64,000 nt of DNA from an uncultured Hyphomicrobiales bacterium. Its GTDB lineage: Bacteria; Pseudomonadota; Alphaproteobacteria; Rhizobiales; Beijerinckiaceae. The notes below the pieces were generated by a model, which was not told the DNA's origin, made no database searches, and worked only from the letters and a program-made list of their open reading frames with translations. Location of the stretch: positions 1 to 64,000 of the forward strand of contig CAIOVE010000066.1 in the NCBI GenBank assembly GCA_903861645.1, in the 5' to 3' direction. Shown in pieces: positions 41,572-58,003 of the stretch; positions within the stretch are counted from its first letter, which is position 1; every line of letters begins with the position of its first letter. A program made the position numbers and the translations under genes.

Positions 41572-42573
41572 ATGCCGGTCAATCCGCGCGTTCATTCAGA
41601 CGTTTCCTTGTTCGCCCGACGGTCGCGCCGCGAGGTTCTCGTCGGCGCCGGCGCGATGGCGCTCATGCCCGGCGTCGCCCGCGCCGCGGACGCCCTGCGC
41701 GTCGGCAAGGCCATCGCCTCGTCATTTCCCTTCGCCGGCCTCGAACTCGGCAAGGAACAAGGCATTTTCGCCAGCGAGAATCTTGACGTCACGATATCGA
41801 CCTTTCGCGGCGACGGTCAGTTGCAGCAAGCCTTCGCCGCCGGCGCGCTGGATGTCGGCGTCGGCTCGGGACCGGGCATGGGCTACGCCTCCAAGGGCGT
41901 GCCCGCCCACGCCGTCGCCTCGCTGGCCTCCGAACCGCGCAACATGGCGCTCGTGGTGATGAACCCCGCGCTGAAAACCGTCGACGACCTCAAGGGCAAG
42001 CGCATCGGCGTCAGCACGGCGGGCTCTTTGACCGAATGGCTGGCGCGCGCCATCTCCGTGCGCAAGGGCTGGGGCTCCGAGGGCGTCGAGGTCGTGCCCA
42101 TGGGCGAGACCCGCACGCGCAACGCGGCCATGAAGGCCGGCGATCTCCAGGCGAGCGTTACCTCCACCGAGGAAGGACTGGAGTTGCAGGAGCAGGGCGT
42201 TGGCCGCGTATTGATGAATTTCGGCGACATCGTGCCCGACTTTCACACGCATGTGATTTTCGCCAGCGACGCGCTCATCAAGCAGAAGCCCGACACCGTC
42301 AGACGCTTTCTGCGCGGCTGGTTCAAGACCGTCGCCTTCATGCGCGACAATCGCGCCGCGACGATCAAATCGATCGCCAGGACGATGAACCTCAGCGAGA
42401 AGGTCGTCGACATGGCCTATGAGACGGAAATGGGCATGATGTCCTTCGACGGCGCCTTCTCGGCCAAGGCGGTCGAAATCATACGTGGTTCGCTGAAGGA
42501 TCTCGGCATCACCGACACCGCGCCGGCGGCCGCGGCCATGTTTGATCCGACGTTCACGCCCGTGAAGCTTTAG
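41572..42573 (+). CDS. NitT/TauT-type ABC solute-binding protein
   Basis: Periplasmic binding protein (NMT1/SsuA-like), 333 residues. Its N-terminus has a twin-arginine-like signal (RRSRREVLVGAGAMAL, ending ARAAD). Motifs: FPFAGLELGKEQGIFASENLDV, VGVGSGPGMGY, and the DLKGKRIGVSTAGS loop. GGGAGG precedes the ATG. It is the probable receptor for the ATPase and permeases encoded 1.1 kb downstream, separated from them by the divergent LysR gene. The ligand is likely a heterocyclic nitrogen compound judging from the neighbouring enzymes. Confidence 0.9.
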   Translation: MPVNPRVHSDVSLFARRSRREVLVGAGAMALMPGVARAADALRVGKAIASSFPFAGLELGKEQGIFASENLDVTISTFRGDGQLQQAFAAGALDVGVGSGPGMGYASKGVPAHAVASLASEPRNMALVVMNPALKTVDDLKGKRIGVSTAGSLTEWLARAISVRKGWGSEGVEVVPMGETRTRNAAMKAGDLQASVTSTEEGLELQEQGVGRVLMNFGDIVPDFHTHVIFASDALIKQKPDTVRRFLRGWFKTVAFMRDNRAATIKSIARTMNLSEKVVDMAYETEMGMMSFDGAFSAKAVEIIRGSLKDLGITDTAPAAAAMFDPTFTPVKL

Positions 42574-42584
42574 GGCGCGCGAAC

Positions 42585-43493
42585 TCAGGACCATTGGGCG
42601 CCGGCGGCGTCCAGATAGGCCGAGAACCGCTCGACCGGATAGGCGTCGATGCGGCGCGGGTTCGTGACCTGATAGATGTCGACGAACAACGCGGGCGCGT
42701 TGATGTCGATCGCGACCACGCGGCCCGTCGCGATGTCGGCCTTGAGCGAAACCTCGAGCGAACAACAAAGGCCAAGGCCCTCGGCCGCGAAATCCCGGCT
42801 CATGCCGAAATCCGTCGCTTCCGCCGCGATGCGCAGCGGCGTCACACCGATGCGCGCGAGAATTTGCGCCGTTGTTCGCCCGAATTGCGAACCCGGCGGC
42901 GCGCCGATGAATTCATGGCGCGCGACCTCGGCGGGCGGCACGCGCCGCCGACCGGCCAGCGGATGGTCGGGCGCCGAATACACAATGCAACGCTGCCGCC
43001 CGATCAACCGGCAAGGCAGGCCGGGCGCGGTTTCCGTAGCCACGAGAATGCCAACGTCTGAATCGCCCTTGCGCACGCTGGCGAGCACTTCCTCCTGATA
43101 CGTCGTGCGCACGGCCAGCCTGATGTCGCGGTTCAGCCGCGCGAACCCCGCCAGAAGTCCACGCAGCAGGGGATCGGACAGGGTTCTTTGGCAATTGACC
43201 GCGAGCACGTGCTGGTCGCCGCCGCGCGCCGCCGCCAAGCCTTGCTCAAGCTGGCTGGCCTGCGCGAGCATGCCCCGCGCATGTACAAGAAATGTCTGCC
43301 CGGTGGGCGTCAGCGCCGCCGATTTGCCGGTCTGACGCAGAAAAAGCACGGAGCCCGCCGCGTCCTCAAGGCCGCGCATGTGGGCGCTGACCGAAGGCTG
43401 GGCGATGCCAAGGCGTCGCGCCGCGGCCGCGAAGCTGCCCGTCTCCGCAATTGCGATGAAAACCTGCAACTGTCGAAATGTTGGCATGAGCAT
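42585..43493 (-). CDS. LysR-type transcriptional regulator
   Basis: A 302-residue LysR regulator: an N-terminal helix-turn-helix (residues about 4-62, with FRQLQVFIAIAETGSFAAAARRLGIAQPSVSAHM) and a C-terminal effector domain. It is divergent from the ABC ATPase gene and convergent with the binding-protein gene, so it splits the transport cluster. It probably activates the transporter/hydantoinase operon in response to a pathway compound. Two Met starts lie two codons apart; neither has a clear ribosome site. A dyad in the shared region is a candidate operator. Confidence 0.93.
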   Translation of the reverse strand: MLMPTFRQLQVFIAIAETGSFAAAARRLGIAQPSVSAHMRGLEDAAGSVLFLRQTGKSAALTPTGQTFLVHARGMLAQASQLEQGLAAARGGDQHVLAVNCQRTLSDPLLRGLLAGFARLNRDIRLAVRTTYQEEVLASVRKGDSDVGILVATETAPGLPCRLIGRQRCIVYSAPDHPLAGRRRVPPAEVARHEFIGAPPGSQFGRTTAQILARIGVTPLRIAAEATDFGMSRDFAAEGLGLCCSLEVSLKADIATGRVVAIDINAPALFVDIYQVTNPRRIDAYPVERFSAYLDAAGAQWS

Positions 43494-43518: not shown

Positions 43519-43656
43519 AGGTGGTAAAGCCCGGGAGGCGCTTGCCTGATCCCCCCGCGCGCAGCATGGTCGATCACGAGACGTGGAGGGAACGATGGCG
43601 GGGCAACACGGCGCACGCGCGCGGCGACGGACGCCATTGATGGCGGAGGCGTCTTG

Positions 43657-44505
43657 ATGCCGGTCGATACGGCCCCCGATCTGGCCGACGCGGCGATCTC
43701 CATTCGCGGCGTCACCCAGCGCTACGCCGCGGCCGGCGCGGCGGATGGCGTTCTCGCGCTCGACAATATTTCCCTCGACATCAGACGCGGCGAGTTCGTC
43801 TGCCTGCTGGGCCCTTCCGGCTGCGGCAAGAGCACGCTGCTGAATATCGTCGGCGGCCTGTTCAAGCCGACGAGCGGCGAGGTGCTGGTCGGCGGTCGCC
43901 GCGTCGACGGCGCGCCGCATCCCGACGAGATCGCCTTCGTCTTCCAGGAAAGCACGCTCTTTCCCTGGTACACGATCATCGAGAATTTCCGCATCGCGCT
44001 CAAGCTTCGGGGCGTCGCCAAATCGGAATGGGACGACCGCGCGATGGAGGCGCTGCGCGCGGTGGGCATGGCGAGCTTCGCCCGCCACTATCCCAATCAG
44101 CTTTCGGTCGGCATGCGACAGCGGGTCAACATGGCCCGCGGCATTTGCGTTGAAACGAACATCCTGTTGATGGACGAGCCCTTCGCCGCGCTCGATGAGC
44201 AGAGCCGCATGGTGCTGGGCGAGGATCTGTCGATCCTTCTGGCCAAAACCGGCAAGACCATCGTCTTCGTCACCCACTCGCTGGCGGAAGCGGTGTTTCT
44301 GTCCGACCGCATCGCGGTGATGACCGCGCGCCCGGGCCGCATCAAGACCATCGTCGACGTCAACGAGCCGCATCCGCGCGCGCCCGACTTCATGCTCGCG
44401 CCGCGGTTTGGCGAATTGCGCAACGACCTCTTCGCCATGTTGCGCGAGGAAATCCGCGTCGCCATGGCCTCGCAACGCGATCCCGTTGGCGGGGGCGTGA
44501 CATGA
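43657..44505 (+). CDS. NitT/TauT-type ABC importer ATPase
   Basis: ABC ATPase of the SsuB/TauB group, 282 residues. Walker A GPSGCGKST (residues about 52-60), Q-loop FVFQESTLFPW, signature LSVGMRQR, Walker B ILLMDEPF, and a switch His in VTHSLAEAV. ATG is preferred over the TTG one codon upstream, GGAGG lying before it. Energises uptake with the next two permeases. First gene of an operon where each start overlaps the previous stop by four bases through hyuB. Confidence 0.93.
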   Translation: MPVDTAPDLADAAISIRGVTQRYAAAGAADGVLALDNISLDIRRGEFVCLLGPSGCGKSTLLNIVGGLFKPTSGEVLVGGRRVDGAPHPDEIAFVFQESTLFPWYTIIENFRIALKLRGVAKSEWDDRAMEALRAVGMASFARHYPNQLSVGMRQRVNMARGICVETNILLMDEPFAALDEQSRMVLGEDLSILLAKTGKTIVFVTHSLAEAVFLSDRIAVMTARPGRIKTIVDVNEPHPRAPDFMLAPRFGELRNDLFAMLREEIRVAMASQRDPVGGGVT

Positions 44506-45269
44506 AAAGCGACGTCGTCGCCCAGCGCACGATACAACTGGCGTTTCTCGCAATCGCCGGCGGCGCCTGGTGGTTCGCCACGTCGTCCGGCGCGATCAGC
44601 CGCCTGTTCCTGCCCGCGCCCGACGCCGTCTATGCCGCGCTGTCGCGCCTCGTCGGCACGAACCAGTTCTGGAACGCGGTGCAAATCACGCTCGCCACCA
44701 TCGCGAAGGCCTATGGCCTGGCCATCGTCGCGGGCGTGCTGGCCGGCTACCTCGTGACGCGTTCGCGATTCTGGATGGAGGTGTTCGAGCCCATCATCGC
44801 GGGCCTTTTCACGATTCCGATCACCCTGTTCTTTCCGATGTTCATTCTGTTTTTCGGAATCGGGCCGGGCTCGAAGGTCGCCTATGGCGCGACCTACGCC
44901 TTCTTTCCCATCGCTTTGAACACCATCGCGGGCCTCGCCGGCGCCGATGAAAAATATCTGCGCGCCGCCCGCTCCATGGGCGCGTCGCGCTTCGACGTGT
45001 TCCGCCACGTCCTTTTACCGAGCGCCTTCCCTGTCCTGCTGACGGGATTGCGCGTGGGCTTCTTCATCTGCTTCGCCTCGGTGCTTGGCGGCGAGGCGCT
45101 GGCGTCCATCGCGGGCGTTGGCCGCAACATCGCGCTGGCGGCCGAATTGATGGAGTCAGCGCGCATGTACGCCTGGATCACCTTCGTCGTCCTGACCGCC
45201 GTTTCGCTCAATCTGCTTGTCACCTCGATCGAGAATCGCGTGGCGAAGGCGGAGGGCATGTCGCGATGA
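44502..45269 (+). CDS. NitT/TauT-type ABC importer permease 1
   Basis: A 255-residue inner-membrane permease with about six helices. It has a family coupling loop (EAA motif) around residues 148-170: EKYLRAARSMGASRFDVFRHVLLPSA. The N-terminal IPITLFFPMFILFFGIG segment is typical of SsuC-like permeases. Start and stop overlap its neighbours by four bases. Confidence 0.92.
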   Translation: MKSDVVAQRTIQLAFLAIAGGAWWFATSSGAISRLFLPAPDAVYAALSRLVGTNQFWNAVQITLATIAKAYGLAIVAGVLAGYLVTRSRFWMEVFEPIIAGLFTIPITLFFPMFILFFGIGPGSKVAYGATYAFFPIALNTIAGLAGADEKYLRAARSMGASRFDVFRHVLLPSAFPVLLTGLRVGFFICFASVLGGEALASIAGVGRNIALAAELMESARMYAWITFVVLTAVSLNLLVTSIENRVAKAEGMSR

Positions 45270-46099
45270 GCGCCCTTGATTCCGCGCCCGCGGAGATCAT
45301 GGGCATGCCGCGCGGACGCGCCGTCGCGCTGACCCGCTGGGCGATCATCGTCGGCGCCGCGCTGGCTCTTGAATTGTATGGCCGGCTGTTCGCCGACCCC
45401 TCGTTCTTCCAGCCGCTCTCCGCCATTGCGCGCGCATGGGTCAATCCGATCATGTCGGACGAGCGCATCGTCGGCGCGCTGGGCATGGCTGTTTTCGAGA
45501 TCGCGCTTGCCTATGGCCTCTCCATCGTCGTCGGCGCCGCCATCGGCATGGCCATCGGCGGATCGAATTTCGCGCGCGCCAGCTTTCTTCCCATCGTGCT
45601 GCTGCTCTACGCGATACCGCAGGTGTCGCTGATGCCGCTGTTCGTGCTCGTGTTCGGGCTCGGCGCGGCGAGCAAGATCGCCTTTGGTTTCAGCCATGGC
45701 GTCTTCCCCGTCATCGTCAACGTCGTCGCGGGGATGCGCAACACCAACCCGCTGCACCTGCGCGCCATGCGCTCCATGGGCGGCACGCGCGCCGATGAAC
45801 TGCGCCACGTGGTGTTCCCCAACATGGTCCCCTCGTTCTTCGTCGGCCTGCGGCTCGCGATGACGATGACCATGCTCGGCGTTATCCTCGCCGAGCTTTA
45901 CGTCTCCACTGGCGGCATCGGTTATTTCACGCGCGTTTACGCGGAAAACTACAATCCGGCGCCGCTGTTCGCGCTGATCGGTTCGCTGGCGATCATCGCG
46001 GTCGCCTTCAATTCGCTGGTGCGGGTCGCCGAACGGCGCCTGATGCCCGGCCGTCGTCCAACGGCCAGACTCAATCTCTCCGGAGCCCGAACGAAATGA
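45266..46099 (+). CDS. NitT/TauT-type ABC importer permease 2
   Basis: A 277-residue paralogous permease. The EAA loop is visible as LHLRAMRSMGGTRADELRHVVFPNMVPSF, and the IPQVSLMPLFVLVFGLGAASK segment is typical. With permease 1 it forms a heterodimeric channel; two separate permeases rather than a homodimer are usual only in part of this family. Overlaps hyuA by four bases. Confidence 0.92.
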   Translation: MSALDSAPAEIMGMPRGRAVALTRWAIIVGAALALELYGRLFADPSFFQPLSAIARAWVNPIMSDERIVGALGMAVFEIALAYGLSIVVGAAIGMAIGGSNFARASFLPIVLLLYAIPQVSLMPLFVLVFGLGAASKIAFGFSHGVFPVIVNVVAGMRNTNPLHLRAMRSMGGTRADELRHVVFPNMVPSFFVGLRLAMTMTMLGVILAELYVSTGGIGYFTRVYAENYNPAPLFALIGSLAIIAVAFNSLVRVAERRLMPGRRPTARLNLSGARTK

Positions 46100-48162
46100 A
46101 TATAGTTGGTGTTGATATTGGCGGCACGTTCACCGATCTCGTCGGCGTGATCGACGGTCGGATCGTCTCGTCGAAGACCTCGACAACCCCGGCCGATCCC
46201 AGTCTCGGCGTCGCGGAAAGCCTGCGCCTGGCCGACTGCGACCTGCCCGGCCTCGCCGAACTGCTGCACGGATCGACGATCGCCATCAACACGGTGCTGG
46301 AGCGCAAGGGCGCCAAAACCGCGCTGGTGACGACGAAGGGCTTTCGCGACGTCTACGCCATCGGTCGCGGCAACCGCATCGAGGCATTTAACCTGTTCTT
46401 TCATCGACCAAAGCCGCTGGTCGCGCGCCACCTGACCTTCGAGGTCGACGAGCGCCTCGACCCAGCGGGCAAGGCGCTGAAAACGCTCGACCCAGCGGAA
46501 GTCGCGGCCTTGACGAAAACCCTGCTCGAGGCGGGCGTTGATTCAGTCGCGGTCTGCCTGCTCCATTCCTACGCCAATCCCGCGCATGAGCGCGCGGTGG
46601 GCGAGGCGCTGCGCCGCGCCGCGCCCGGCCTGTTCGTCACGTTGTCGCACGAAATCCTGCGCGAATTCCGCGAATATGAACGCACGTCGACGACGGTGCT
46701 CAACGCCTATGTCGGGCCGCGCGTGCGCGATTACCTCACCAATCTGGAAAACTGGCTGCGCGGCCAGAAGTTCACCGGCAAGATGCATCTCATGCGGTCG
46801 AATGGCGGCGTCATGTCGCTGGCGCAAGCCCGCGTGCAGCCGGTATCGATGATGGAATCCGGCCCCGTCGCGGGCATGATCGCCGCCGGCATCCTGTGCA
46901 AGCAACTGGGCATCGAGCAGGCCATCGGCTTCGACATGGGCGGCACCACGGCGAAATCGAGCCTTATCACCCGCGGCGCGCCCGCCGTGGAGGAAGGTTA
47001 CGTCATCGGTCCCGCGGCCAGCGGACAACCGATGCAACTGCCCGTGGTTGATATCGTCGAGGTCGGCACCGGCGGCGGCTCGATCGCCTGGGTCGACGAC
47101 ACCGGCGGCCTGCATGTCGGCCCGCGCAGCGCCGGCGCCGACCCCGGCCCCGCCTGCTACGGCAAGGGATCGGACACGCCCGTCATCACCGACGCCGACC
47201 TCGTGCTGGGCCGCATCAACCCCCAGCGCTTTCTCAATGGCGGCATGAAGCTCGACATCGCGGCCGCGCGCGCCGCCATCAAGAGCAAGGTCGCCGATCC
47301 GCTGGGCCTCTCGATCGAGGAAGCGGCGATCGGCATCGCCACCATTTCCGACACAGCCATGTCGCTGTCGGTGCGCGCGGTTTCCGTCAACAAGGGCGTC
47401 GATCCGCGCGAGACAACCATGATCGCCTTTGGCGGCGCGGGCCCCCTGCACGCCATCGCCATCGCGCGCGAAATCTTCATTCCGCGCGTCATCATTCCCA
47501 AATTGCCCGGCGCCTTCTCCGCGCTCGGCATGTTGATGGCCTCCTGGCGGCAGGACTTCGTCCGCACGCTCGTCGGCCGTCTCGGAAAGCTCGATCACGC
47601 CCTTGTCGAGAAGGTCTTCGCGGAACTGAAGGCCGATGGCGAGGCGCAATTGGCGCGCGACGGTATTCCGCGCGACGGCGCGAGCCTCGTCTTCAACGCC
47701 GATCTGCGTTACGTTGGTCAGGAGCACGCGCTGCAAATTCCCATCGACAGCCCGGCCATGCTGACGGGCGACATCACGAAGGTGCGCGAATTGTTCCATG
47801 TGGAGCATGACCAGCGCTACGGACAGGCGGCCATCGAGGAAGCGCTGGAAATCGTCAACCTGCGTCTCGTGCTGACGGCGGCGCGCGCCGACACCATCGC
47901 CGAGCAATCAATGGCCGAGGCCTGGGTTCCCACGGACACGGCCGCCGAAACGACCCGCAAGGTCATTTTCACCGATCCGCTGAAGCCGCTCGACGCGCGT
48001 ATTCTCTGGCGTCCGTCGTTGCCCGCGGGCTTCGCCTTCGAGGGCCCCGCCGTCATCGAGGAGCCCAACTCGACCATTCTCATTCATCCCGGCGACAAGG
48101 TGCGCGTGACCGAGGCCGGTCACCTCATCGTCGATATCGCCAGCGTCGGAGCCCAGTCATGA
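46096..48162 (+). CDS. hyuA: Hydantoinase/oxoprolinase subunit A (HyuA)
   Basis: ATP-dependent hydantoinase/5-oxoprolinase-type large subunit, 688 residues. ASKHA ATP-binding motifs: VDIGGTFTDL at the N-terminus and GFDMGGTTAKS mid-protein; GTGGGSIAWVDDTGGLHVGPRSAGADPGPACYG is the family hallmark; GAGPLHAIAIARE follows. The HyuA/HyuB pair opens cyclic amides such as N-methylhydantoin, hydantoin, 5-oxoproline, or acts in acetone-carboxylase-like reactions. Location between a dedicated importer and HyuB implies that the imported solute is its substrate. Start overlaps permease 2 by four bases. Confidence 0.94.
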   Translation: MNIVGVDIGGTFTDLVGVIDGRIVSSKTSTTPADPSLGVAESLRLADCDLPGLAELLHGSTIAINTVLERKGAKTALVTTKGFRDVYAIGRGNRIEAFNLFFHRPKPLVARHLTFEVDERLDPAGKALKTLDPAEVAALTKTLLEAGVDSVAVCLLHSYANPAHERAVGEALRRAAPGLFVTLSHEILREFREYERTSTTVLNAYVGPRVRDYLTNLENWLRGQKFTGKMHLMRSNGGVMSLAQARVQPVSMMESGPVAGMIAAGILCKQLGIEQAIGFDMGGTTAKSSLITRGAPAVEEGYVIGPAASGQPMQLPVVDIVEVGTGGGSIAWVDDTGGLHVGPRSAGADPGPACYGKGSDTPVITDADLVLGRINPQRFLNGGMKLDIAAARAAIKSKVADPLGLSIEEAAIGIATISDTAMSLSVRAVSVNKGVDPRETTMIAFGGAGPLHAIAIAREIFIPRVIIPKLPGAFSALGMLMASWRQDFVRTLVGRLGKLDHALVEKVFAELKADGEAQLARDGIPRDGASLVFNADLRYVGQEHALQIPIDSPAMLTGDITKVRELFHVEHDQRYGQAAIEEALEIVNLRLVLTAARADTIAEQSMAEAWVPTDTAAETTRKVIFTDPLKPLDARILWRPSLPAGFAFEGPAVIEEPNSTILIHPGDKVRVTEAGHLIVDIASVGAQS

Positions 48163-49814
48163 CATCAACGGAAGCTCATCCGATAACCGTCGAGGTCGTG
48201 CGCAACGCCATCGTCGCCTATGGCGACGAGATGGCCAACGCGCTCTGCAAGGCCGCCTACAACATGATGATCTACGAGGTGCGCGACTATTGTTGCGGCC
48301 TGATCGATCTGCAGGGCCGCATGATCTCGCAGAACCGCGGCGGCCTGCCGATATTCCTCGCCGACCTCGGCATCGCCATCGAGGACGGAGTCAGGCGTTG
48401 GGGCCTCGACGGTTTCGCGCCCGGCGACGTGCTCATCATGAACCACGGCGAGACCTGCGGTCAGCACCTCAACAACATCGTCATCTACTGCCCGGTGTTT
48501 CACGAGGGCGAGATCGTCGCCTTCACCGCCAACCGCGCCCACTGGGTCGACATCGGCGGCGCGCGCATCGGCTTTGGCTCCTCCGCCACGACGGAAATCT
48601 TCGCCGAGGGCATTCAGCTCCGCTCGTTGAAGATCTACGAGGCGGGCAAGCGCAACGAAACGCTCTGGCAGATCATCAACGACAACGTCCGCTTCCCCGA
48701 CGCGAGCCTCGGCGACCTGCGCGCGCAGATCGCCTCGTGCCAGCTTGGCGCGCGGCGCTATGGCGAATTGCTGTCGCGCTATGGCCGCGCCACGGTCGAG
48801 GCCTGCGTCGCGCGCATCTGGGATCAGGCGGACCGCGCCGTGCGCAAGGTCATCGAGCGCATTCCCGACGGCGTTTACACGGCCGAGAGCTTCCTCGACA
48901 ACGACGGCCGCGATCTCGAAAAGACGCTGCGCGTCAAGGTCACCGTCAAGGTCGTCGGTTCGACCATGTCGATCGACTTCTCCGAGATGAACCCGCAGAC
49001 CAACAGCCCCATCAATTCCGGCCGCTCGGGCGGCATCGCCGCCGCGCGCGTCGCCTTCAAGGCGCTGACCTCGCCCGATCTCGACGTCAACGAAGGCTGC
49101 TTCCGCGCGCTCGACGTCATCCTGCCCGAAGGCACGATGCTGAGCGCCCGCCCGCCCGCGGCGCTCGGCCTGTGGAGCATCGCCCTGCCAACCACCATCG
49201 ACACGATCCTCAAGGCGCTGGCGCCGGCGTTGCCAACCATGATTCCCGCCGCGCACAAGGGAGACATGGGCGGATGCTCCTTCTACGGCGTCAATGGCGA
49301 GGGCCAGCGCTTCCTGCTGATGAACATCTTCGGCGGCGGCTGGGGCGGGCGTCCGCACGAGGATGGCGAGGACGCCTCCGTGTCTGTCTGTCAGGGCGAC
49401 GTGCGCAACACGCCCGTCGAATTGCAGGAAATCCGCTATCCCTTCCTCATCGAAAACCACCGGCTGCGCGACAACAGCGGCGGCGCCGGCAAATATCGCG
49501 GCGGCCTAGGCGTCGAACTCACCTACAAGTGCCTCGTCCCCTGTCAGGTGAACATCAATTTCGAGCGCACCAAGCTGCCGCCGTGGGGCCTGCATGGCGG
49601 CGGCAACGGCGGCGCCAATTACGCCATCGTGCGCCACGCCAGCGGCGCGCCCGAGAAGGTCGTGCTGAAGGGCACGCAGATCCCCTTGCAGGCGGGCGAT
49701 TCCGTCGCCTTCTTCACCGCCGGCGGCGGCGGTTACGGCGATCCGCGCGAACGCGCGCCCGAAGCCATCGCGCACGACCTGCGCGAGGGTTTCGTCACCG
49801 CGGCGGCTGAATAG
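48159..49814 (+). CDS. hyuB: Hydantoinase/oxoprolinase subunit B (HyuB)
   Basis: Partner of HyuA, 551 residues, in the usual length range. Motifs: ANALCKAAYNMMIYEVRDY, DPSGR-like QGRMISQNRG, NHGETCGQHLNNI in place of NDPYxGGTHLPD, GCSFYGVNGEGQRF, and the GGAGKYRGGLGV glycine loop. The classical His-containing TH motif is altered to CGQH, which may shift substrate range away from oxoproline. Start overlaps HyuA by four bases, as expected of a heteromeric complex. Confidence 0.93.
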   Translation: MTSTEAHPITVEVVRNAIVAYGDEMANALCKAAYNMMIYEVRDYCCGLIDLQGRMISQNRGGLPIFLADLGIAIEDGVRRWGLDGFAPGDVLIMNHGETCGQHLNNIVIYCPVFHEGEIVAFTANRAHWVDIGGARIGFGSSATTEIFAEGIQLRSLKIYEAGKRNETLWQIINDNVRFPDASLGDLRAQIASCQLGARRYGELLSRYGRATVEACVARIWDQADRAVRKVIERIPDGVYTAESFLDNDGRDLEKTLRVKVTVKVVGSTMSIDFSEMNPQTNSPINSGRSGGIAAARVAFKALTSPDLDVNEGCFRALDVILPEGTMLSARPPAALGLWSIALPTTIDTILKALAPALPTMIPAAHKGDMGGCSFYGVNGEGQRFLLMNIFGGGWGGRPHEDGEDASVSVCQGDVRNTPVELQEIRYPFLIENHRLRDNSGGAGKYRGGLGVELTYKCLVPCQVNINFERTKLPPWGLHGGGNGGANYAIVRHASGAPEKVVLKGTQIPLQAGDSVAFFTAGGGGYGDPRERAPEAIAHDLREGFVTAAAE

Positions 49815-49823
49815 GAGCGCGAC

Positions 49824-50936
49824 ATGACGCCATCTCACGCCCATATCGCCCGCTCCGAAATCCTGCGCGAGGAAATGGAGCGCGCCGACATCGACGCCCT
49901 GCTCGTCTACGGCAACGCGTGGCACGCGGACTCGCTGCGCTACGCCACGGACTTCGGCATTCAGGAAGGGCAGGCGCTGGCGCTCGTCGGCAAGGATGGG
50001 GTAACGACCCTCTTGCTCGACGATCGCGCCGAGGCCGACCGCGCCCGCGCGGAAGGCAATTGCGAGGTTGTCTTCGCCCCGAAACTCATCGAGGCCGCGC
50101 GCGACCTGCTGTCGCGCGCCGGCAACAGGCGCGTGGCGGCGACGCCGTGGCGACTGATGCCCTATGGCCTGACGCGCGACGCCCGCGATCTGCGCATTTC
50201 CGATGGCGCCGCCTTGCTTGAACACCTGTTGATGGGCAAGCGCGAATTCGAGCTCGCCGCCGCTCGTCGCGCCGCGGCGCTCGCGGACGAGGGCTACAAG
50301 GTGTTTCGCGACGCCGCCCGGCCCGGCCGCAAGGATTACGAACTCATCGCCGAGATCGAGGCCTTCTTTCGCGCTCATCGCGTGCCCGAGAATTTCATGA
50401 TCATCGGCGTCGGCGGCGTCGAGGTGCGCGGCATGGCCCCGCCCGTCGGCAAGGTCATCAAGGAGGGCGACCTCGTCACGACCGAACTGACGCCCTGCGT
50501 CGATGGCTATTACGCGCAAGTCTGCCGCACGCTGGTCAGCGGAACGCCGAGCGACACGCAACTGAAGTCCTTCGCCGTGTTTCAGGAAGCGCTGGAGGCC
50601 GGCCTCGCGGCGGTCAAATCCGGCGTTCCCGCGAGCGCCATCGCGAAGGCCGAGAATGACGTGTTCCGCGCATACGGGCTCGGCGACTACGTCACGTCCG
50701 AATATACGCGCGTGCGCGGCCACGGAATCGGCCTCTTCCCCGACCAGAGACCGCAAATCCTCGAGGACGTGCATCTGCCGATCGTCGGCGATTCCACCAT
50801 CATCGTACATCCCAACACCTATCATCCCGACGCGGGCTACATGGTGCTCGGCGACACGATCATCGCGCGCGCCAATGGGCACGAATGCCTCGGCGGCCTG
50901 TCGCGCGAACTTTTTTCCGTTCCGGTCCGGGGGTAA
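49824..50936 (+). CDS. M24-fold (creatinase/aminopeptidase-like) protein lacking metal ligands
   Basis: A 370-residue two-domain pita-bread protein: creatinase N-domain (to about 140) and an M24 C-domain. In metallopeptidases five residues bind two metals (Asp, Asp, His, Glu, Glu). Here they read Glu221, Gln232, His300, His329 and Gly343, so only the His in RGHGIG remains. Creatinase also works without metal, hydrolysing creatine to sarcosine and urea, and has GYYTALERT where this protein has GYYAQVCRT. A creatinase-like amidinohydrolase or a carbamoyl-amino-acid hydrolase is plausible. It lies nine bases after hyuB. Confidence 0.87.
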   Translation: MTPSHAHIARSEILREEMERADIDALLVYGNAWHADSLRYATDFGIQEGQALALVGKDGVTTLLLDDRAEADRARAEGNCEVVFAPKLIEAARDLLSRAGNRRVAATPWRLMPYGLTRDARDLRISDGAALLEHLLMGKREFELAAARRAAALADEGYKVFRDAARPGRKDYELIAEIEAFFRAHRVPENFMIIGVGGVEVRGMAPPVGKVIKEGDLVTTELTPCVDGYYAQVCRTLVSGTPSDTQLKSFAVFQEALEAGLAAVKSGVPASAIAKAENDVFRAYGLGDYVTSEYTRVRGHGIGLFPDQRPQILEDVHLPIVGDSTIIVHPNTYHPDAGYMVLGDTIIARANGHECLGGLSRELFSVPVRG

Positions 50937-50939
50937 GGC

Positions 50940-51986
50940 ATGCGCCGCGGTTATTATGGTTGGGACGAGTCCGAATTGCCGCTCGCCGCGCTCGCGGCGC
51001 GTCGCGCGCGCCTGCAAACAGCTATGGCTGGCGCGCGCCTCGATGGCTTGGCTTTTTACACCAACATCGCCCGCCCGGCCGCGGTGTCGTGGCTGACGGG
51101 CTTCACGCCCTATTGGTCCGAGGGCCTGCTGTTCGTCGGTCGCGTGGGCGAGCCTGAATTCGCCACGGCCTTGTCCAAGCGCGTCGCCGAATGGATGCGC
51201 GCGGTGACGCCCGTCGGCGCCTTGCTGACCACGCCGAAACCGGCGGAATATTTCGCCAAACGTCTCGCGAACGCGAGCGGCCCGCGCCGGCTGGGCGTGC
51301 TGGAGCTCGACATGCTGCCGGGCGGACAGGCCGCGGAAATTCTTGCTGTCGCGCCCGACGTCGAACTCGTCGACGCCACGGATCTGTTCCGCGCCGCGCG
51401 CCTGCAACGCGACGACGCGGAACTGGGCCTGTTCGCCCATGGCGCCGTGATCGCCCGCGAGGCGCTGGCCCATATCGATTCATCGGCGAGCCGCGACGCC
51501 TTCGCGCTCGTCGGCGCCATCGAGAAATCGGCGCGCGACGCCCGCGCGGAGGATGTGCAGGTCACCCTCGCGCCCGACCTCGCCCGCGACGCGAGTTTCA
51601 TGCGCGTCGACCGCGCGGAAGCCGTTGGCGAAAGCTTCGCCATCCGCGCCTCCATCGCCTACAAATCCACGTGGGTGCGGCGCGCGCGCTCCGTCTCGAC
51701 CGACGCCGCGCTGGCGTCGCGTTTCGCCGCGCTGGAGGGCGCGCTCGATACGCTGATCGCCCGGCATGATCCGACGCGCCCCATCGGCGCCCAACTCGCC
51801 AACGCGCTGCATGCCGTGCCCGGCGCGTCGCTCAAGGGCTGGACGCTGGAGGATTGCCGCGGTTCCTATCCGCTGGAAATCGTCGCTGGCGAGGAGATCG
51901 GCGACGCGACGGCGGGCGCCTGCTCGATCCTGACCGTGCATGCCCTGATCAACGGCGTGAACTGGATCGCCTCGCGCCCGATCTAG
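50940..51986 (+). CDS. Second, more degenerate M24-fold protein
   Basis: A 348-residue protein starting three bases after the first M24 gene. The N-terminal part (RARLQTAMAGARLDGLAFYTNIARPAAVSWLTGFTPYWSEG) matches a creatinase N-domain. The C-terminal half keeps the strand order but has no HGIG motif and none of the metal ligands. It probably forms a heterodimer with the preceding M24 protein, since creatinases are dimers in which both subunits build the active site. No catalytic residues can be assigned. Alternatively it has a new activity. Confidence 0.75.
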   Translation: MRRGYYGWDESELPLAALAARRARLQTAMAGARLDGLAFYTNIARPAAVSWLTGFTPYWSEGLLFVGRVGEPEFATALSKRVAEWMRAVTPVGALLTTPKPAEYFAKRLANASGPRRLGVLELDMLPGGQAAEILAVAPDVELVDATDLFRAARLQRDDAELGLFAHGAVIAREALAHIDSSASRDAFALVGAIEKSARDARAEDVQVTLAPDLARDASFMRVDRAEAVGESFAIRASIAYKSTWVRRARSVSTDAALASRFAALEGALDTLIARHDPTRPIGAQLANALHAVPGASLKGWTLEDCRGSYPLEIVAGEEIGDATAGACSILTVHALINGVNWIASRPI

Positions 51987-52058
51987 CGCCCCGCGCGCTG
52001 GACCGGTCTCCGATTTGCATCGATGATGGCGGATCATTTCGATCGAGGACCGCCGCCC

Positions 52059-53402
52059 ATGCGCACATGGATCAAGAACCCGCTCGCCGTGCTCGCCGAA
52101 AACGCGGGTGGAGGCCTCGTCGTCGAAAACGGCGTGATCGCGGAACGGGTGCCATCCGGCAAGGCGCCGGCAAGCCCGGTCGACGCCACGTTTGACGCCA
52201 GCGCGCACGTGGCGATTCCCGGTCTCGTGAACACACACCACCACATGTTCCAGACGTTGACGCGCGCGCACCCGGCGGCGATCAACAAGGAACTGTTTCC
52301 CTGGTTGCAGGCGCTGTTTCCGATCTGGTCGCGCAATCTGAAGCCCGAGGGTTTCCGCCTCGCCTCCCGTCTCGCGCTCACGGAATTGCTGATGTCCGGC
52401 TGCACGACCGTGTCGGATCATCAGTATCTCTATCCGCCGGGTCTCGACGCCGCGATGGACATTCAGGCCGAGGAGGCCGCTGCCCTCGGCGTGCGCATGA
52501 CGCTGACGCGCGGCTCGCTGAACCTGACGGCGGAGGAAGGCGGCAACGCGCCCGAGGGCGGCGTGCAGGGCGTCGATGAAATCCTCGCCGACTGCGAACG
52601 CGTGATCGGCCGCTATCACGATACGAAGCCGGGCGCGATGACCCGCGTGGCGCTCGCCCCCTGCGCCCCGTTCAACGTGTCGAAGCGCCTGATGATCGAA
52701 TCCGCCGCGCTCGCCGCGCGCCATGATTGCCGCATGCACACGCACCTCGCCGAAACGCGCGACGAGGTCGATTACTGCAGCGAGAAATTCGCCTGCCGCC
52801 CCGTCGATTATCTCGAGGAGGTCGGCTGGATGAACGACAAGGTCTGGCTCGCCCATGGCATTCATTTCAACGACGACGAAGTCGCGCGCCTCGGTCGCGC
52901 GCGCGTTGGCGTCTGCCATTGCCCGACGTCCAACATGGTGCTCGCCTCCGGCCAGTGCCGCACCAAGGAGCTTGAGGCGGCTGGATCGCCCGTCGGCCTC
53001 GGCGTCGATGGCTCGGCCTCGAACGACAATTCCAACCTGATGGAGGGCGTGCGCCACGCCCTGATGAGCAATCGCCTGCTTTACGGCGCCTCCGCGGTCA
53101 CGCATTTCGACGCGCTACGCTGGGCGACGGAAGGTTCCGCGCGCTGCCTCGGGCGCGACGACATCGGCGCGCTCGCCGTCGGCAAGCAGGCCGACATCGC
53201 TTTCTACAAGCTCGACGAACTCCGCTTTTCCGGCGCGGGCGATCCACTCGCCGCCCTCGTGCTGTGCGGCGCGCATAGCGCGGATCGAGTCATGGTCGGC
53301 GGCGAATGGCGGGTGATCGACGCATTGCCCGTCGGCGTCGATGTCGCGCGCCTGCGGCGCGAACATGGCGCGGCGGCGCGGGCCTTTCTCGAAAACTACT
53401 GA
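52059..53402 (+). CDS. 8-oxoguanine deaminase-like amidohydrolase
   Basis: Amidohydrolase-superfamily deaminase, 447 residues. Metal motif VNTHHHMFQTLTRA (HxH at 60/62), a Zn ligand in HTHLAE, a catalytic/metal His in LAHGIH, and Asp in GVDGSASND. The TWIKNPLAVL beginning and the QTLTR sequence resemble P. aeruginosa Pa0142-type 8-oxoguanine deaminase; atrazine chlorohydrolase relatives (TrzN/AtzB) are the next closest. It would convert 8-oxoguanine to urate, or deaminate another cyclic amidine such as creatinine. It is last in the operon, 72 bases after the second M24 gene; the ATG at 52059 has GAGG upstream. Convergent with xdhC. Confidence 0.83.
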   Translation: MRTWIKNPLAVLAENAGGGLVVENGVIAERVPSGKAPASPVDATFDASAHVAIPGLVNTHHHMFQTLTRAHPAAINKELFPWLQALFPIWSRNLKPEGFRLASRLALTELLMSGCTTVSDHQYLYPPGLDAAMDIQAEEAAALGVRMTLTRGSLNLTAEEGGNAPEGGVQGVDEILADCERVIGRYHDTKPGAMTRVALAPCAPFNVSKRLMIESAALAARHDCRMHTHLAETRDEVDYCSEKFACRPVDYLEEVGWMNDKVWLAHGIHFNDDEVARLGRARVGVCHCPTSNMVLASGQCRTKELEAAGSPVGLGVDGSASNDNSNLMEGVRHALMSNRLLYGASAVTHFDALRWATEGSARCLGRDDIGALAVGKQADIAFYKLDELRFSGAGDPLAALVLCGAHSADRVMVGGEWRVIDALPVGVDVARLRREHGAAARAFLENY

Positions 53403-54211
53403 ACGCCCTCTCGCGCCTGCAACAATTGCGCGACGGTCGTCGCCGCGATAACGGCGGGCGCCTTGTCCCTGAGCACGGGCGCGCCAATGGGGCAGACCAG
53501 CGCGCCAATGACATCGTCCGCAAGTCCAGCGGCGCGCATGCGCGCCTCGAAACGCGCGCGCTTTGTCGCCGAACCGATCAATCCGACATAGGGAAAGCGC
53601 CGCGCCGCGAGCGCGCGCGTCGCGATATCGAGATCGAGCGGATGCGAATGGGTCATGATCAGAACGAACGCGCCATCCGGCGCCGCGTCGATCTCGGCGG
53701 CGCAATCGCGCGCCGCGACGGGCGTGACATTGCCGGGCATCGCGGCCGGAAACATGTCGGCGCGCGCGTCAATCCATCTGACGGCGAAGGGCAAGGGCGC
53801 CAGCGCCAGCGCCAGCGCGCGACCGACGTGCCCCGCTCCGAAGAGTAGCAAGGGCGTTGGCGCCTCGCGTTCGCCGGCGAAGCGCGCGATGAGCGCGGAC
53901 AGGTTATCAGCGCCAAACGTTTCGATCGTCAGCCGCACGCGGCCACCGCAGCATTGGCCGAGGTCGGGGCCAAGTGAAATGACCCGCGTTTCGATAACGC
54001 TTGGCCCACGCGCCAAAGCCGCGCGCGCGTCCTCCAGCGCGCCCCACTCCAGCGCGCCGCCGCCAATCGTGCCCTGAAAGCCGCCGGACGGACGCACCAC
54101 CATGCGCGCGCCCGCGTCCCGCGGACTCGACCCCTCGACGCCGACAATGGTGACAAGCGCCGCCGCGCCTTCGGCGGCGAACGCGTCACGCAGTTGCGCG
54201 AGGATGGACAT
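53396..54211 (-). CDS. xdhC: XdhC family molybdenum-cofactor insertion protein
   Basis: A 271-residue XdhC-like protein that binds sulfurated molybdenum cofactor and loads it into xanthine dehydrogenase. It has the N-terminal VGVEGSSPRDAGARMVV motif, GTIGGGALEW, the CCGG motif (GQCCGGRV), and a Rossmann domain (LLFGAGHVGRALA). Its ATG forms TGATG with the xdhB stop. The gene end overlaps the convergent deaminase gene by seven bases. Confidence 0.92.
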   Translation of the reverse strand: MSILAQLRDAFAAEGAAALVTIVGVEGSSPRDAGARMVVRPSGGFQGTIGGGALEWGALEDARAALARGPSVIETRVISLGPDLGQCCGGRVRLTIETFGADNLSALIARFAGEREAPTPLLLFGAGHVGRALALALAPLPFAVRWIDARADMFPAAMPGNVTPVAARDCAAEIDAAPDGAFVLIMTHSHPLDLDIATRALAARRFPYVGLIGSATKRARFEARMRAAGLADDVIGALVCPIGAPVLRDKAPAVIAATTVAQLLQAREGVQ

Positions 54212-56523
54212 CACGCGCCCGCGAGCGCTTGCGCCGCCATCAAAATGCGTTCGGGCGTGGCGGGCGCGTCGAGCGGCACGAAGCGCCCCGGCGCGATGGA
54301 ATGCAACGCGTCGAGAACGGCCGAATAGACGGAAATCGGCAACATGAGCGGCGGCTCGCCCACCGCCTTGGAACGATAGATCGTCGCGACGCGATTGGGC
54401 GATTCCAGAAGATCGCAGCGAAGATCGGCGGGAACATCGGAGGCGACGGGAATCTTGTAGGTGGAGGGCGCGTGGGTCGTGAGTCGACCCTTGTCGTCGA
54501 ACACCAGTTCCTCGGTCGTCAGCCAGCCCATGCCCTGAACGAAACCGCCCTCGATCTGGCCCTTGTCGAGCGCGGGATTCAGGGAGCGGCCGACGTCATG
54601 CAGAATATCGACCCGCTCGACCTTCATCTCGCCAGTCAATGTATCAACCGCGACCTGCGCGCAGGAGGCGCCATAGGCGAAATAGAGGAATGGCCGCCCC
54701 TTGCGCGCCGCGCGATCCCATTCGATGAGGGGCGTCTTGTAAAACCCGGCGTGAGACAGCTGCACACGCGCCTGCCGGCATTTTTTCGCGAGCTCGGGAA
54801 ACGACAGGCTCGTGTTGCCGATGAACACGACGCCGTCGCGGAATGCCACGAGATCGCGCGCGACGCCATATTCCTCCATGGCGAAGGCGATCATGCGTTC
54901 CTTGATGGCGCTCGCCGCGATTTGCGCGGCCATGCCATTGAGATCGGAGCCCGAACTCGCCGCCGTCGGCGAGGCGTTCGGCACTTTCGCCGTATTCGTC
55001 GCGGTGATGCGCACCCAGTCGAGCGGTATGCCGAATTCCTCGGCGACCACCTGCGCCACCTTGGTGAACAGGCCCTGCCCCATCTCCGTGCCACCGTGGT
55101 TCAGATGCACGGAGCCGTCCTGATAGACATGCACCAGCGCGCCCGCCTGATTCATGTGGATCAGCGTGAAGGAAATGCCGAACTGGATCGGCGTCAGCGC
55201 GATGCCGCGACGAATGATCGGATTGCCGGCGTTTTCGGCGGCGATGGCGGCTCGGCGTGCGCGATAGTCGCTTGTCTTTTCGAGACGCTCGATAAGATCG
55301 ACGAGAACGTCGGGGTCCTCGACCTTCATGCCATAGGGCGTGAGATCGCCGCCGGGCCGATAGAGATTGGCCTTGCGCACGTCGAGCGGATCGCGACTGG
55401 TCTCGTGCGCGATGGCGTCCATCACGTGTTCGATGGCGAGCATGCCTTGCGGTCCGCCAAAGCCGCGGAAGGCAGTCGCCGAAACCGTGTTGGTCTTGAG
55501 GCGTCGCGTCGCGACGGCGACCGTGGGAAGAAAGTAAGCGTTGGCGGCATGAAACATGGCGCGATCGACGACGCCCGGCGACAGATCGACCGAGCAACCG
55601 CATCGCGCGTTGAGCATGACGTCGTAAGCCTCGATGACGCCGTCGTCGTTGAAACCGACGCGCCAGTCAGCACGAAAATCATGGCGCTTGCCGGTCATCA
55701 CGAAATCATCGTCGCGATCAAGCCGCAGCTTGCACGGCCGCCCCGTCACGCGCGCGGCGAGCGCGGCGAGCGCCGCTGTCTGCGCCGCCTGACTTTCCTT
55801 GCCGCCAAAGGCGCCGCCCATGCGCCGCGTCTCGGCTGTCACGAAGGCGTCAGGCATGGCGAGCACGCGGGCGACGATATGCTGAACCTCGGTCGGGTCC
55901 TGTGTCGACGTATGCACGTGCATCTCGCCGGCCTCGCCGGGAATGGCCAGCGCCGCCTGCCCCTCGAGATAGAAATGTTCCTGCCCGCCGATGTTCAGTT
56001 GGCCCGCGAGCCGGCGCGACGCCGCGGCGATCGCGGCGTTCACATCGCCACGTCCGAAGTCGTAATCCGGCAAGACCTTGGCGTCGGCGGCGATGGCGTC
56101 GTCGATCGTCAGCAGCGGCGGTTCGGCCGCGATCTCGACATTCGCCAGCCTTGTGGCGCGTCGCGCGATGTCGCGAGAGATCGCGACAACGATGAACATG
56201 ACCTGTCCGTGAAAAACAACGTCGCCATCGGCGAACAGCGGATCGTCGCCGAACGCGGCGGAGGTGTCGTTCTTGCCCGGCACGTCGCGCGCGGTCAGAA
56301 CCGCGACCACGCCCGGCGCGCGACGCACGGCGTCGAGATCGAGCTTGATAATTCTGCCGCGCGCGACATTGGAGAGGCCGGGCGCGATGTGCAGCGTGCC
56401 CTCGGGCTCGCGGATGTCGTCGATATAGGCCGCCGCGCCGCGCACATGCAGATGCGCGGAATCATGGGGCGTCGGCTTGTTGACAATGGCCAGGGGGACG
56501 GGTGTCTCGTCATTCGGCGGCAT
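54211..56523 (-). CDS. xdhB: Xanthine dehydrogenase, molybdopterin-binding subunit
   Basis: Molybdenum subunit, 770 residues, of the bacterial XdhB type. It has the HIAPGLSNVARG start, GGQEHFYLEGQ, the RRMGGAFGGKES cofactor loop, TAFRGFGGPQGM with the substrate-binding Arg, GGTEMGQGLFTK, and the catalytic Glu in KAVGEPPLMLP. These are the residues needed to hydroxylate hypoxanthine and xanthine to urate. It overlaps xdhA by 14 bases and xdhC by one. Confidence 0.95.
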   Translation of the reverse strand: MPPNDETPVPLAIVNKPTPHDSAHLHVRGAAAYIDDIREPEGTLHIAPGLSNVARGRIIKLDLDAVRRAPGVVAVLTARDVPGKNDTSAAFGDDPLFADGDVVFHGQVMFIVVAISRDIARRATRLANVEIAAEPPLLTIDDAIAADAKVLPDYDFGRGDVNAAIAAASRRLAGQLNIGGQEHFYLEGQAALAIPGEAGEMHVHTSTQDPTEVQHIVARVLAMPDAFVTAETRRMGGAFGGKESQAAQTAALAALAARVTGRPCKLRLDRDDDFVMTGKRHDFRADWRVGFNDDGVIEAYDVMLNARCGCSVDLSPGVVDRAMFHAANAYFLPTVAVATRRLKTNTVSATAFRGFGGPQGMLAIEHVMDAIAHETSRDPLDVRKANLYRPGGDLTPYGMKVEDPDVLVDLIERLEKTSDYRARRAAIAAENAGNPIIRRGIALTPIQFGISFTLIHMNQAGALVHVYQDGSVHLNHGGTEMGQGLFTKVAQVVAEEFGIPLDWVRITATNTAKVPNASPTAASSGSDLNGMAAQIAASAIKERMIAFAMEEYGVARDLVAFRDGVVFIGNTSLSFPELAKKCRQARVQLSHAGFYKTPLIEWDRAARKGRPFLYFAYGASCAQVAVDTLTGEMKVERVDILHDVGRSLNPALDKGQIEGGFVQGMGWLTTEELVFDDKGRLTTHAPSTYKIPVASDVPADLRCDLLESPNRVATIYRSKAVGEPPLMLPISVYSAVLDALHSIAPGRFVPLDAPATPERILMAAQALAGA

Positions 56524-57991
56524 GAGCCCATCCCCGACGCGCGAGCCGCGTTTTTTCGATATCGGCGCCGCCGATTTCCATGAACGCCTTGCGCAGCAGG
56601 TTGCGCGCGACGAGCGAACGATAGGCGGAACTGGCGCGCATGTCGCTCAGCGGCGCGTAGTCGGCGGCCAACGCGTCGAGCGCGACGCTCCACGTCGATT
56701 CCGCGTCGAGATCGAGCCCCACGCAGGCGGCCTCGGTCCTCGGCGCGCGGGCCGGCGTGCCGGCCATGCCGCCATAGGCGATGCGCGCCGCCGCGACGCG
56801 CCGACCATCGAGCATCAAATGGAACGCCCCGAGCACGGCGGAAATATCCTCGTCGAAACGCTTGCTGATCTTGAAGGCGCGAAACGCCGACGACGGCGCG
56901 AGCGCGGGGACGGTCAGTCGCCGCACGAATTCGCCCGGAGCCCGATCCTGCTTGCGATAGGCGATGAAAAAATCCTCCAGCGGCAATTCGCGCGCGCTGT
57001 TTCCCTTGCGCAACTCGACGCGCCCGCCAAGCGCGATCAGACAGGGCGCGAGATCGCCAATCGGCGACCCGTTTGCAATGCTGCCGCCGACCGTGCCCGA
57101 GGCCCTTACCTGCGTGGAACCAAAACGGCGCATGATCTCGCCAAGGTCGGCGTGAACGGCCGCGAGCGCGGGCGCGGCCTTGTCCAGCCTGACGCCCGCC
57201 ATCAGCGAGAGACCTTCCACGCCTCGATCCATCGCGTCGAAGCCAGCGATGCGTCCGGTCCAGATGATCTTGCGCGGATCGCGCAGCCCCTTGGTGATCC
57301 AGAGGCCGACATCGGTCGCGCCCGATACGATCAGCGCGTCCGGATGATCGGCGTAAAGCGCGGCAAAGGCGTCCTCGCTCGCCGGCGCGGCGAAAAAAGC
57401 GCTCGCGTCGCCGACCATGACGTCGACGCCATCGGCCAACGCCTCGATCGCCACGCGTCGGCTTTTTTCGGCGCGATTGAATTGATCCTCCACCGGCGCG
57501 GCGCAAACCTCCAGCGCGGCGTCGACGATGGGCCGATAACCCGTGCAACGACAGAGATTGCCCGCGAGTTGATCGCAGACATCGTCGCGCGTCACGGGGC
57601 GCGCGCCATCGTGCTGAAGCGCGAACAGGCTCATCACGATGCCGGGCGTGCAGAACCCGCACTGGGACGCGTGGTGGCGAACCATCGCGTCTTGCAGGGG
57701 ATGTGGCGTCGAGCCGTCAGCCAGATCCTCGACGGTCAGTACCTCGGCGCCATCGGCCTGTCCCAACAGCAGGATGCAGGCATTGACCGGTTCATGAACC
57801 AGTTGTCCTTCGCGAATGCGGGCCAGCACGACGGTGCAGGCGCCGCAATCGCCATCGGCGCACCCTTCCTTGGTTCCGGTCGCGCGCTTTTGCACGCGCA
57901 ACCAGTCCAGCAGCGTCTCCCGCGGCGGCGCGTCGAAGATCTCGACGGGCGCGCCACGAAAGATGAACCGGATCGACGAACGGCGCGTCAT
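56510..57991 (-). CDS. xdhA: Xanthine dehydrogenase, FeS/FAD subunit
   Basis: Small subunit of 493 residues. The N-terminal plant-type 2Fe-2S cluster is C44, C49, C52, C72; the second cluster is C111, C114, C147, C149 (CGFCTPG ... NLCRCTGY). An FAD domain follows (about 200-490) with VSGATDVGLW and VRASGTVGGSIANGSPIGD. It passes electrons from molybdenum to NAD. It begins 12 bases after the BMP-family binding-protein gene, which suggests co-transcription with a nucleoside/purine receptor. Confidence 0.95.
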   Translation of the reverse strand: MTRRSSIRFIFRGAPVEIFDAPPRETLLDWLRVQKRATGTKEGCADGDCGACTVVLARIREGQLVHEPVNACILLLGQADGAEVLTVEDLADGSTPHPLQDAMVRHHASQCGFCTPGIVMSLFALQHDGARPVTRDDVCDQLAGNLCRCTGYRPIVDAALEVCAAPVEDQFNRAEKSRRVAIEALADGVDVMVGDASAFFAAPASEDAFAALYADHPDALIVSGATDVGLWITKGLRDPRKIIWTGRIAGFDAMDRGVEGLSLMAGVRLDKAAPALAAVHADLGEIMRRFGSTQVRASGTVGGSIANGSPIGDLAPCLIALGGRVELRKGNSARELPLEDFFIAYRKQDRAPGEFVRRLTVPALAPSSAFRAFKISKRFDEDISAVLGAFHLMLDGRRVAAARIAYGGMAGTPARAPRTEAACVGLDLDAESTWSVALDALAADYAPLSDMRASSAYRSLVARNLLRKAFMEIGGADIEKTRLARRGWAHAAE

Positions 57992-58003
57992 CGATGACTC
58001 CGC

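Follow-up and report, generated by a model that had tools for sequence, protein, structure and literature searches.

The M24 pair and its operon

The window, as the whole stretch of 64,000 nucleotides analysed here is called, holds two adjacent genes of the M24 fold, M24a (49824..50936, + strand, 370 residues) and M24b (50940..51986, + strand, 348 residues). The first-pass annotation had described tandem M24-fold reading frames three bases apart, and the frames found here have exactly these boundaries, with M24b starting three bases (GGC) past the stop codon of M24a. M24a, a putative catalytic-type subunit with an altered site, is matched by the Pfam profiles Peptidase_M24 (92.5 bits, cut-off 23) and Creatinase_N (34.2 bits), and M24b, its paralog and putative pseudo-subunit, by Creatinase_N only (30.5 bits).

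The operon runs in the order NMT1-type ABC transporter, HyuA, HyuB, M24a, and M24b. HyuA (46096..48162, +; Pfam Hydantoinase_A, 313.7 bits) and HyuB (48159..49814, +; Hydantoinase_B, 542.4 bits) are the alpha and beta subunits of an ATP-dependent lactamase family, and both score below the NCBIfam caprolactamase equivalog cut-offs of 1000, with 491.3 (alpha) and 263.7 bits. The transporter comprises an ATPase (43654..44505, +; ABC_tran), a first permease (44502..45269, +; BPD_transp_1), and a putative second permease (45266..46099, +), assigned from its position, its 4-base overlaps with both neighbours, and its retention in related loci. Four such overlaps join the ATPase, both permeases, HyuA, and HyuB, and M24a starts 9 bases past HyuB. 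An NMT1/THI5-type substrate-binding protein (41572..42573, +; NMT1, 98.9 bits) and a divergent LysR regulator (42585..43493, −; LysR_substrate and HTH_1) lie upstream of the ATPase gene.

A purine block (52023-59077) adjoins the operon. It opens with an 8-oxoguanine deaminase-like gene on the + strand (NCBIfam NF006055, 629 bits, cut-off 532), which starts 36 or 72 bases past M24b and is followed on the − strand by XdhC, XdhB, XdhA, and a Bmp/PnrA-type binding protein. The deaminase and xanthine dehydrogenase genes were considered as a hint to the pathway, and this purine link was rejected. Among the 80 related loci listed, a single locus (L087) has a weak match to the deaminase (49 bits) and 13 have xanthine-dehydrogenase-like matches, and such rarity argues that neither is a fixed partner.

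The altered active site of M24a

By its Peptidase_M24 profile and its fold, M24a belongs to the M24 pita-bread superfamily. The AlphaFold2 inputs combined the window with 48 other rows for each protein, drawn from 79 M24a rows of sufficient length and from 74 M24b rows. The resulting M24a model (pLDDT 93.9) superimposes on the X-Pro aminopeptidase 2zsg_A with VIA Z 36.9 (2.7 Å over 349 residues), on creatinase 7yto_A with Z 36.1 (3.2 Å over 354 residues), and on EutD 6yo9_A with Z 36.1 (3.9 Å over 355 residues); since Z values within 1 count as tied, the fold cannot separate the peptidase from the non-peptidase relatives of M24a.

In canonical M24 proteins, the alignments place D, D, H, E, and E at the five metal-ligand columns. 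M24a holds Glu221 in the first (50484..50486, +), Gln232 in the second, His300 in the third (50721..50723, +), His329, part of an HPN motif, in the fourth (50808..50810, +), and Gly343 in the fifth (50850..50852, +). These are the same residues that the first-pass annotation had assigned to the five columns, and His300 is the sole canonical ligand retained of the set that marks M24 metallopeptidases of the prolidase/aminopeptidase P type. The first column is also that of Glu255 in EutD. To the earlier list can be added Cys234, located two residues past Gln232 (codons 232 to 234 at 50517..50525, +), which is as invariant as the five ligand-column residues. The His that precedes the first ligand in 8 of 10 other M24 proteins compared is absent from M24a, where Met204 takes its place in all 81 rows (the window plus the 80 loci listed), and the alignments of groups 2 and 3 of the M24a family, described below, hold no His in this column either.

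M24b, a probable pseudo-subunit with a conserved N-terminal loop

The loss of the whole HGIG motif from the second protein, also claimed by the first-pass annotation, is borne out, and none of the five canonical ligands is present either: the ligand columns of M24b read R, R, G, H, and S, or in another alignment R, R, Y, H, and a gap. Having kept the pita-bread fold with none of the five ligands in the window, M24b is an M24 pseudoenzyme. The 23 readable M24b rows hold at most one of the five canonical ligands, and 10 of these rows hold one; the row of L110, whose M24b is split into two ORFs, is unreadable in this comparison. The AlphaFold2 model of M24b (pLDDT 93.1) aligns with 9kwa_B (VIA Z 24.7, 4.5 Å over 325 residues) and with creatinase 7yto_A (VIA Z 24.2, 3.6 Å over 326 residues), from which the protein is predicted to retain a prolidase/creatinase-like fold over nearly its full length.

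The two proteins show an inverted pattern of conservation, highest in the catalytic domain of M24a (0.77, against 0.59 in its N-terminal domain) and in the N-terminal domain of M24b (0.62, against 0.50 in its C-terminal domain). The most conserved block of M24b comprises residues 41–60 (51060..51119, +; mean conservation 0.78), a loop proposed to act in trans. It carries the motif YTN...WLTGFTPYW and sits between model strands 36–41 and 62–67, the first two strands of the N-terminal domain, and its F-x-P core recurs at the same position in group-2 and group-3 M24b. Judging from this position, the loop would be the counterpart of the one through which a prolidase chain reaches the active site of its partner.

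Three group-3 M24b proteins (L028, L165, and L166) bear an HG(V/L)GL remnant, the other four ligands being gone. These sequences may represent an intermediate stage in the loss of the site.

Conservation and distribution of the altered site

The residue set Glu-Gln-Cys234-His-His-Gly is kept in all 104 distinct M24a sequences (duplicates removed). The M24a family comprises three paralogous groups, with identities to the window as low as 27% in the sample compared. The first-pass annotation had held that homologs with intact metal sites would reduce the change to a local decay; such homologs were sought and not found, and local decay of M24a is rejected, since the changed site is present in 104 of 104 distinct sequences. 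Its invariance at identities down to 27% argues instead for an old, fixed feature.

Searches that used no active-site motif contributed 50 of the 104 sequences, and in the first set, collected mostly via M24b, E/Q/H/H/G stands in 36 of 36 rows. Two motif patterns, run against genome contigs, yielded the 80 loci listed out of 198 confirmed stretches. These patterns partly select for Q232, C234, R298, and H300, and the unselected E221, H329, N331, and G343 are found in 81 of 81 rows (the 80 motif-scan loci listed and the window). Apart from one set collected through M24b, the M24a sequences were chosen for their resemblance to M24a, so that distant relatives with other sites would escape the count. 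Two sequences were kept out of the M24 alignments, L021 for its split ORFs and L057 as an unrelated M24 protein. Purifying selection acts on both genes, the dN/dS values over four pairs of loci being 0.10–0.18 for M24a and 0.17–0.36 for M24b.

Within the genus of the window, a profile search located 27 group-2 and group-3 M24a places in 13 of 51 genomes, and 29 of the 51, that of the window included, match M24b at E below 1e-60. Five of these genomes (G017, G033, G046, G048, and G050) harbour up to four M24a/M24b modules each, which represent the three groups and are mostly accompanied by an HyuAB of their own. At the same threshold of 1e-60, surveys of 385 genomes of the class and of 398 genomes of the phylum, in which the scoring covered few candidates for each genome (3 to 5 among the rows listed), matched only the genome of the window itself, which suggests that the family is rare or patchy. 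The same gene order is found on Neorhizobium galegae plasmids, as well as in metagenome-assembled genomes and isolates titled Rhizobiales, Xanthobacteraceae, Rhodospirillales, and Betaproteobacteria, and in one Acidobacteria bin. In N. galegae VafX2 (L021, 12172-16057), HyuB, M24a, and M24b are each annotated as two ORFs, through either sequencing error or real damage, whereas the copy of N. galegae HAMBI 540 (L022) is intact.

Pairing, descent and gene neighbourhood

M24b lies downstream of M24a in 78 of the 80 loci listed, and the contigs of the other two break off after M24a, 134 bases on in L104 and 33 bases on in L132. Of the 78 loci, 73 have a gap of −4 to 21 bases between the two genes, and the remaining five one of 59 to 142. 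Likewise, all 27 group-2 and group-3 M24a places in the genus have an adjoining M24b-like match (22 read, five by coordinates). As this adjacency is kept across relatives, M24a and M24b are expected to work together.

The link to HyuAB is looser. HyuB stands directly upstream of M24a in 54 of 75 loci listed and another gene does so in 21, five more loci being too short, so that the coupling is not strict and the M24 pair forms a tighter unit than the pair with HyuAB. HyuAB is also found beside group-2 pairs and most group-3 pairs. In several loci without an adjoining HyuB (such as L095, L097, and L100), the M24 pair stands by a transporter, an arrangement that fits an enzyme serving other routes as well. 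Four group-3 modules (L163, L164, L167, and L168) have two adjacent genes for NMT1-type binding proteins beside HyuAB.

An hhalign comparison over 240 columns identifies M24a and M24b as paralogs (probability 98.1, E 1.1e-13). In a 56-row tree, unrooted, drawn with a midpoint, and without group 3, groups 1 and 2 of M24a join together (99/98), as do groups 1 and 2 of M24b (100/98), and the closest pairs are the same on both sides (window/L063 and L109/L118). Genes that share an operon would be expected to show such parallel trees in any case. Pairwise distances of M24a and M24b correlate at 0.83 over 79 pairs, a value reached by none of 1000 permutations; because shared inheritance alone suffices to produce it, this correlation speaks for long co-inheritance and not for binding. 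A descent of M24a from an EutD-like clade was also considered, and is unsupported by the tree, where branch support at this point is weak (88/68).

Among the further neighbours in the 80 loci listed, MmgE/PrpD proteins occur in 26 and Amidohydro_2 proteins in 29, with both in 18. They point to a route of carbon–nitrogen degradation and name no substrate. A succinamopine Ti plasmid combines hydantoinase genes with mmgE, according to the accessible text of PMC6733357. A link to opines was set aside as a loose resemblance, as that text mentions no M24 genes for the plasmid.

A proposed two-chain hydrolase and its alternatives

On balance, M24a and M24b are probably subunits of one hydrolase, devoid of the classical two-metal centre and served in trans by a loop of M24b, which would act on a nitrogen compound opened by HyuAB. 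The heterodimer that the first-pass annotation had suggested receives strong, if indirect, support from the pairing in 78 of 80 loci, the purifying selection, and the N-terminal conservation of M24b. The invariant altered site, the strict pairing, the common operon, the purifying selection, and the kept folds are observed. Predicted features of this model are the physical complex, the trans-acting loop, the hydrolase activity, the class of substrate, and the metal status.

M24a would be the catalytic chain, with E221, Q232, C234, H300, and H329 replacing the two-metal centre, and R296, R298, and N331 would surround this new set. M24b would serve as its paralogous pseudo-subunit, retaining the fold and contributing a conserved N-terminal loop. 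The chains of M24 proteins typically associate as head-to-tail dimers, and in such a dimer residues 41–60 of M24b would be placed over the active site of M24a. As for the pathway, the NMT1-type ABC transporter would import a small nitrogen compound, HyuA and HyuB, where present, would open it first as an ATP-dependent lactamase, and M24a/M24b would cleave a C–N bond (amide, amidine, or ureide) in it. Action on a ring-opened HyuAB product is favoured because relatives of HyuAB act on cyclic amides, and a C–N bond because the non-peptide members of the fold act on such bonds. The reaction might proceed without a metal, with E221 as nucleophile or base, an option slightly favoured over a metal-dependent one. 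However, keeping H300 and gaining H329 would be odd for a site that uses no metal, and this counts against the metal-free reading.

The new metal-free hydrolase suggested in the first-pass annotation is therefore one of two options, as E221, H300, H329, C234, and Q232 could hold a single metal. It is possible, although less likely, that M24a is still a metalloenzyme, binding one metal through H300, H329, and either C234 or E221, with M24b as its partner. All 104 sequences share the two His, the Cys, the Glu, and the Gln, and the fourth ligand has turned into His, itself a metal ligand, with H300 kept, whereas EutD has lost both residues. On the other hand, the second and the fifth (bridging) ligands are now Gln and Gly, and C234 occupies the column of creatinase Glu262. 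Peptide deformylase uses the same kind of residue set in an unrelated fold. A fuller version, in which Cys234, His300, and His329 with Glu221 and Gln232 form the single-metal site of a heterodimer, the dead paralog completes the pocket in trans, and the pair with the ATP-dependent lactamase makes up a family of nitrogen-compound degradation modules with three paralogous groups in one genus, is put forward as tentative and rather doubtful.

M24a and M24b might instead form no separate enzyme and assist the HyuA/HyuB lactamase complex as accessory subunits, with a role in, e.g., substrate binding or hand-over. The direct upstream position of HyuB in 54 of 75 loci listed and the company of HyuAB with group-2 and most group-3 pairs would agree with this, and extra subunits can occur in related ATP-dependent enzymes such as acetophenone carboxylase. 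However, HyuB is not directly upstream in the other 21 loci, several pairs adjoin a transporter instead, and the invariant E/Q/C/H/H pocket, at a dN/dS of about 0.1, looks catalytic, which makes an accessory role unlikely.

Equally improbable is that M24a acts as an active homodimer, M24b being a separate regulator or ligand-binding protein. A homodimer of M24a is conceivable because its N-terminal domain is conserved in places too (G30, W33, R39, E48, and G49), and the known M24 enzymes of this kind are homodimeric in the accessible text of PMC4213023 and PMC4108388. Against it stand the strict adjacency, the common descent and grouping of both genes, and the conservation peak of M24b in the dimer-loop region. 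Finally, the two genes could be seen as ordinary M24 peptidases in decay, of which the changed ligands (four of five in M24a, five of five in M24b) might be taken as a sign, but this reading is refuted by conservation, given the invariant site in 104 of 104 sequences, dN/dS values well below 1, and two confident models, and merits practically no credence. The two-chain hydrolase is thus retained as the best explanation and is compared below with known systems.

Comparison with known systems

The operon's HyuA and HyuB share their Hydantoinase_A and Hydantoinase_B domains with caprolactamase CapAB and the ATP-dependent hydantoinases. Known members of this family act on cyclic amides, and no M24 partner is mentioned in the accessible text of the caprolactamase paper (PMC8453981).

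Among M24 enzymes, prolidase and aminopeptidase P (M24B) are the best matches of M24a in both sequence and structure. However, they contain the D-D-H-E-E two-metal centre, which is absent from M24a, and they are homodimers, in contrast to a pair of unlike chains.

Systems in which an enzyme is accompanied by a dead twin are known elsewhere. PID-5 from Caenorhabditis elegans, a pseudo-M24 protein, is proposed to pair with the M24 enzyme APP-1 in the available text of PMC10377022. Unlike M24a/M24b, that pair is eukaryotic, is not encoded as an operon pair, and leaves the metal site of its active partner intact. In the mitochondrial processing peptidase (M16), as described in the accessible part of PMC11266112, a catalytic chain is combined with a related chain devoid of zinc ligands that supplies needed residues. 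This enzyme belongs to another family, and its catalytic chain keeps zinc.

The ectoine hydrolase EutD/DoeA (PDB 6twj, 6twk, and 6yo9) resembles M24a in its pita-bread fold, its location in a catabolic gene cluster, and a first-ligand column occupied by Glu, with changes at the other classical positions. EutD works without a metal via Glu255. E221 of M24a aligns with this motif Glu, residue 255 of 6twk_A as counted along the printed chain, and four other DoeA-like relatives compared have Glu in this column too. However, the upstream His absent from M24a is retained in EutD, which has Tyr and Met in the third- and fourth-ligand columns, where M24a has H300 and H329. The mechanism of EutD is not directly transferable to M24a, which is without this upstream His. 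Moreover, M24a scores 37.2 bits against the ectoine hydrolase equivalog TIGR02993 of NCBIfam (cut-off 613), and in one plasmid cluster examined doeA has no annotated M24b-like neighbour.

Plasmid-borne M24 proteins close to DoeA from Haladaptatus, Roseomonas, Pantoea, and Sinorhizobium meliloti (L142-L149) also carry the first-ligand Glu and a Tyr for the ligand His, and lie in catabolic clusters. Judged by these residues, the metal-free M24 branch looks wider than ectoine hydrolase.

Creatinase (PDB 1chm, 1kp0, and 7yto), a metal-free C–N hydrolase that acts outside peptides, likewise shares the fold and has its classical ligands partly changed. Its first four columns hold Asn, Ala, His, and Glu, compared to Glu, Gln, His, and His in M24a, and it has Glu in the columns of both Cys234 and His329. 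The relevant creatinase residues are His232, Glu262, and Glu358, the last two falling in the Cys234 and His329 columns; Glu262 is a substrate-facing residue. M24a departs from this set by its Cys and His in the Glu262 and Glu358 columns and by having no His in the upstream-His column. Differing from both EutD and creatinase, M24a therefore represents a third non-classical arrangement.

M24 enzymes without the metal site (EutD and creatinase) and enzymes with a dead twin subunit (the mitochondrial processing peptidase and the proposed PID-5/APP-1) are thus known separately. A bacterial operon pair uniting both features, whether as an HyuAB–M24 pair or as an operon-encoded M24 heterodimer, was not found described in the open-licence literature searched, which leaves out most subscription journals. 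If the proposed assembly is correct, it would provide a clear-cut example, from bacteria, of a pseudoenzyme retained as a required subunit, and a direct lead to an undescribed degradation of nitrogen compounds whose genes databases now label Xaa-Pro peptidase and hydantoinase. Provided that the pair is obligate, its site would be the third non-classical active site of the M24 fold, beside those of creatinase and ectoine hydrolase, with the labour divided between a catalytic chain and its dead twin.
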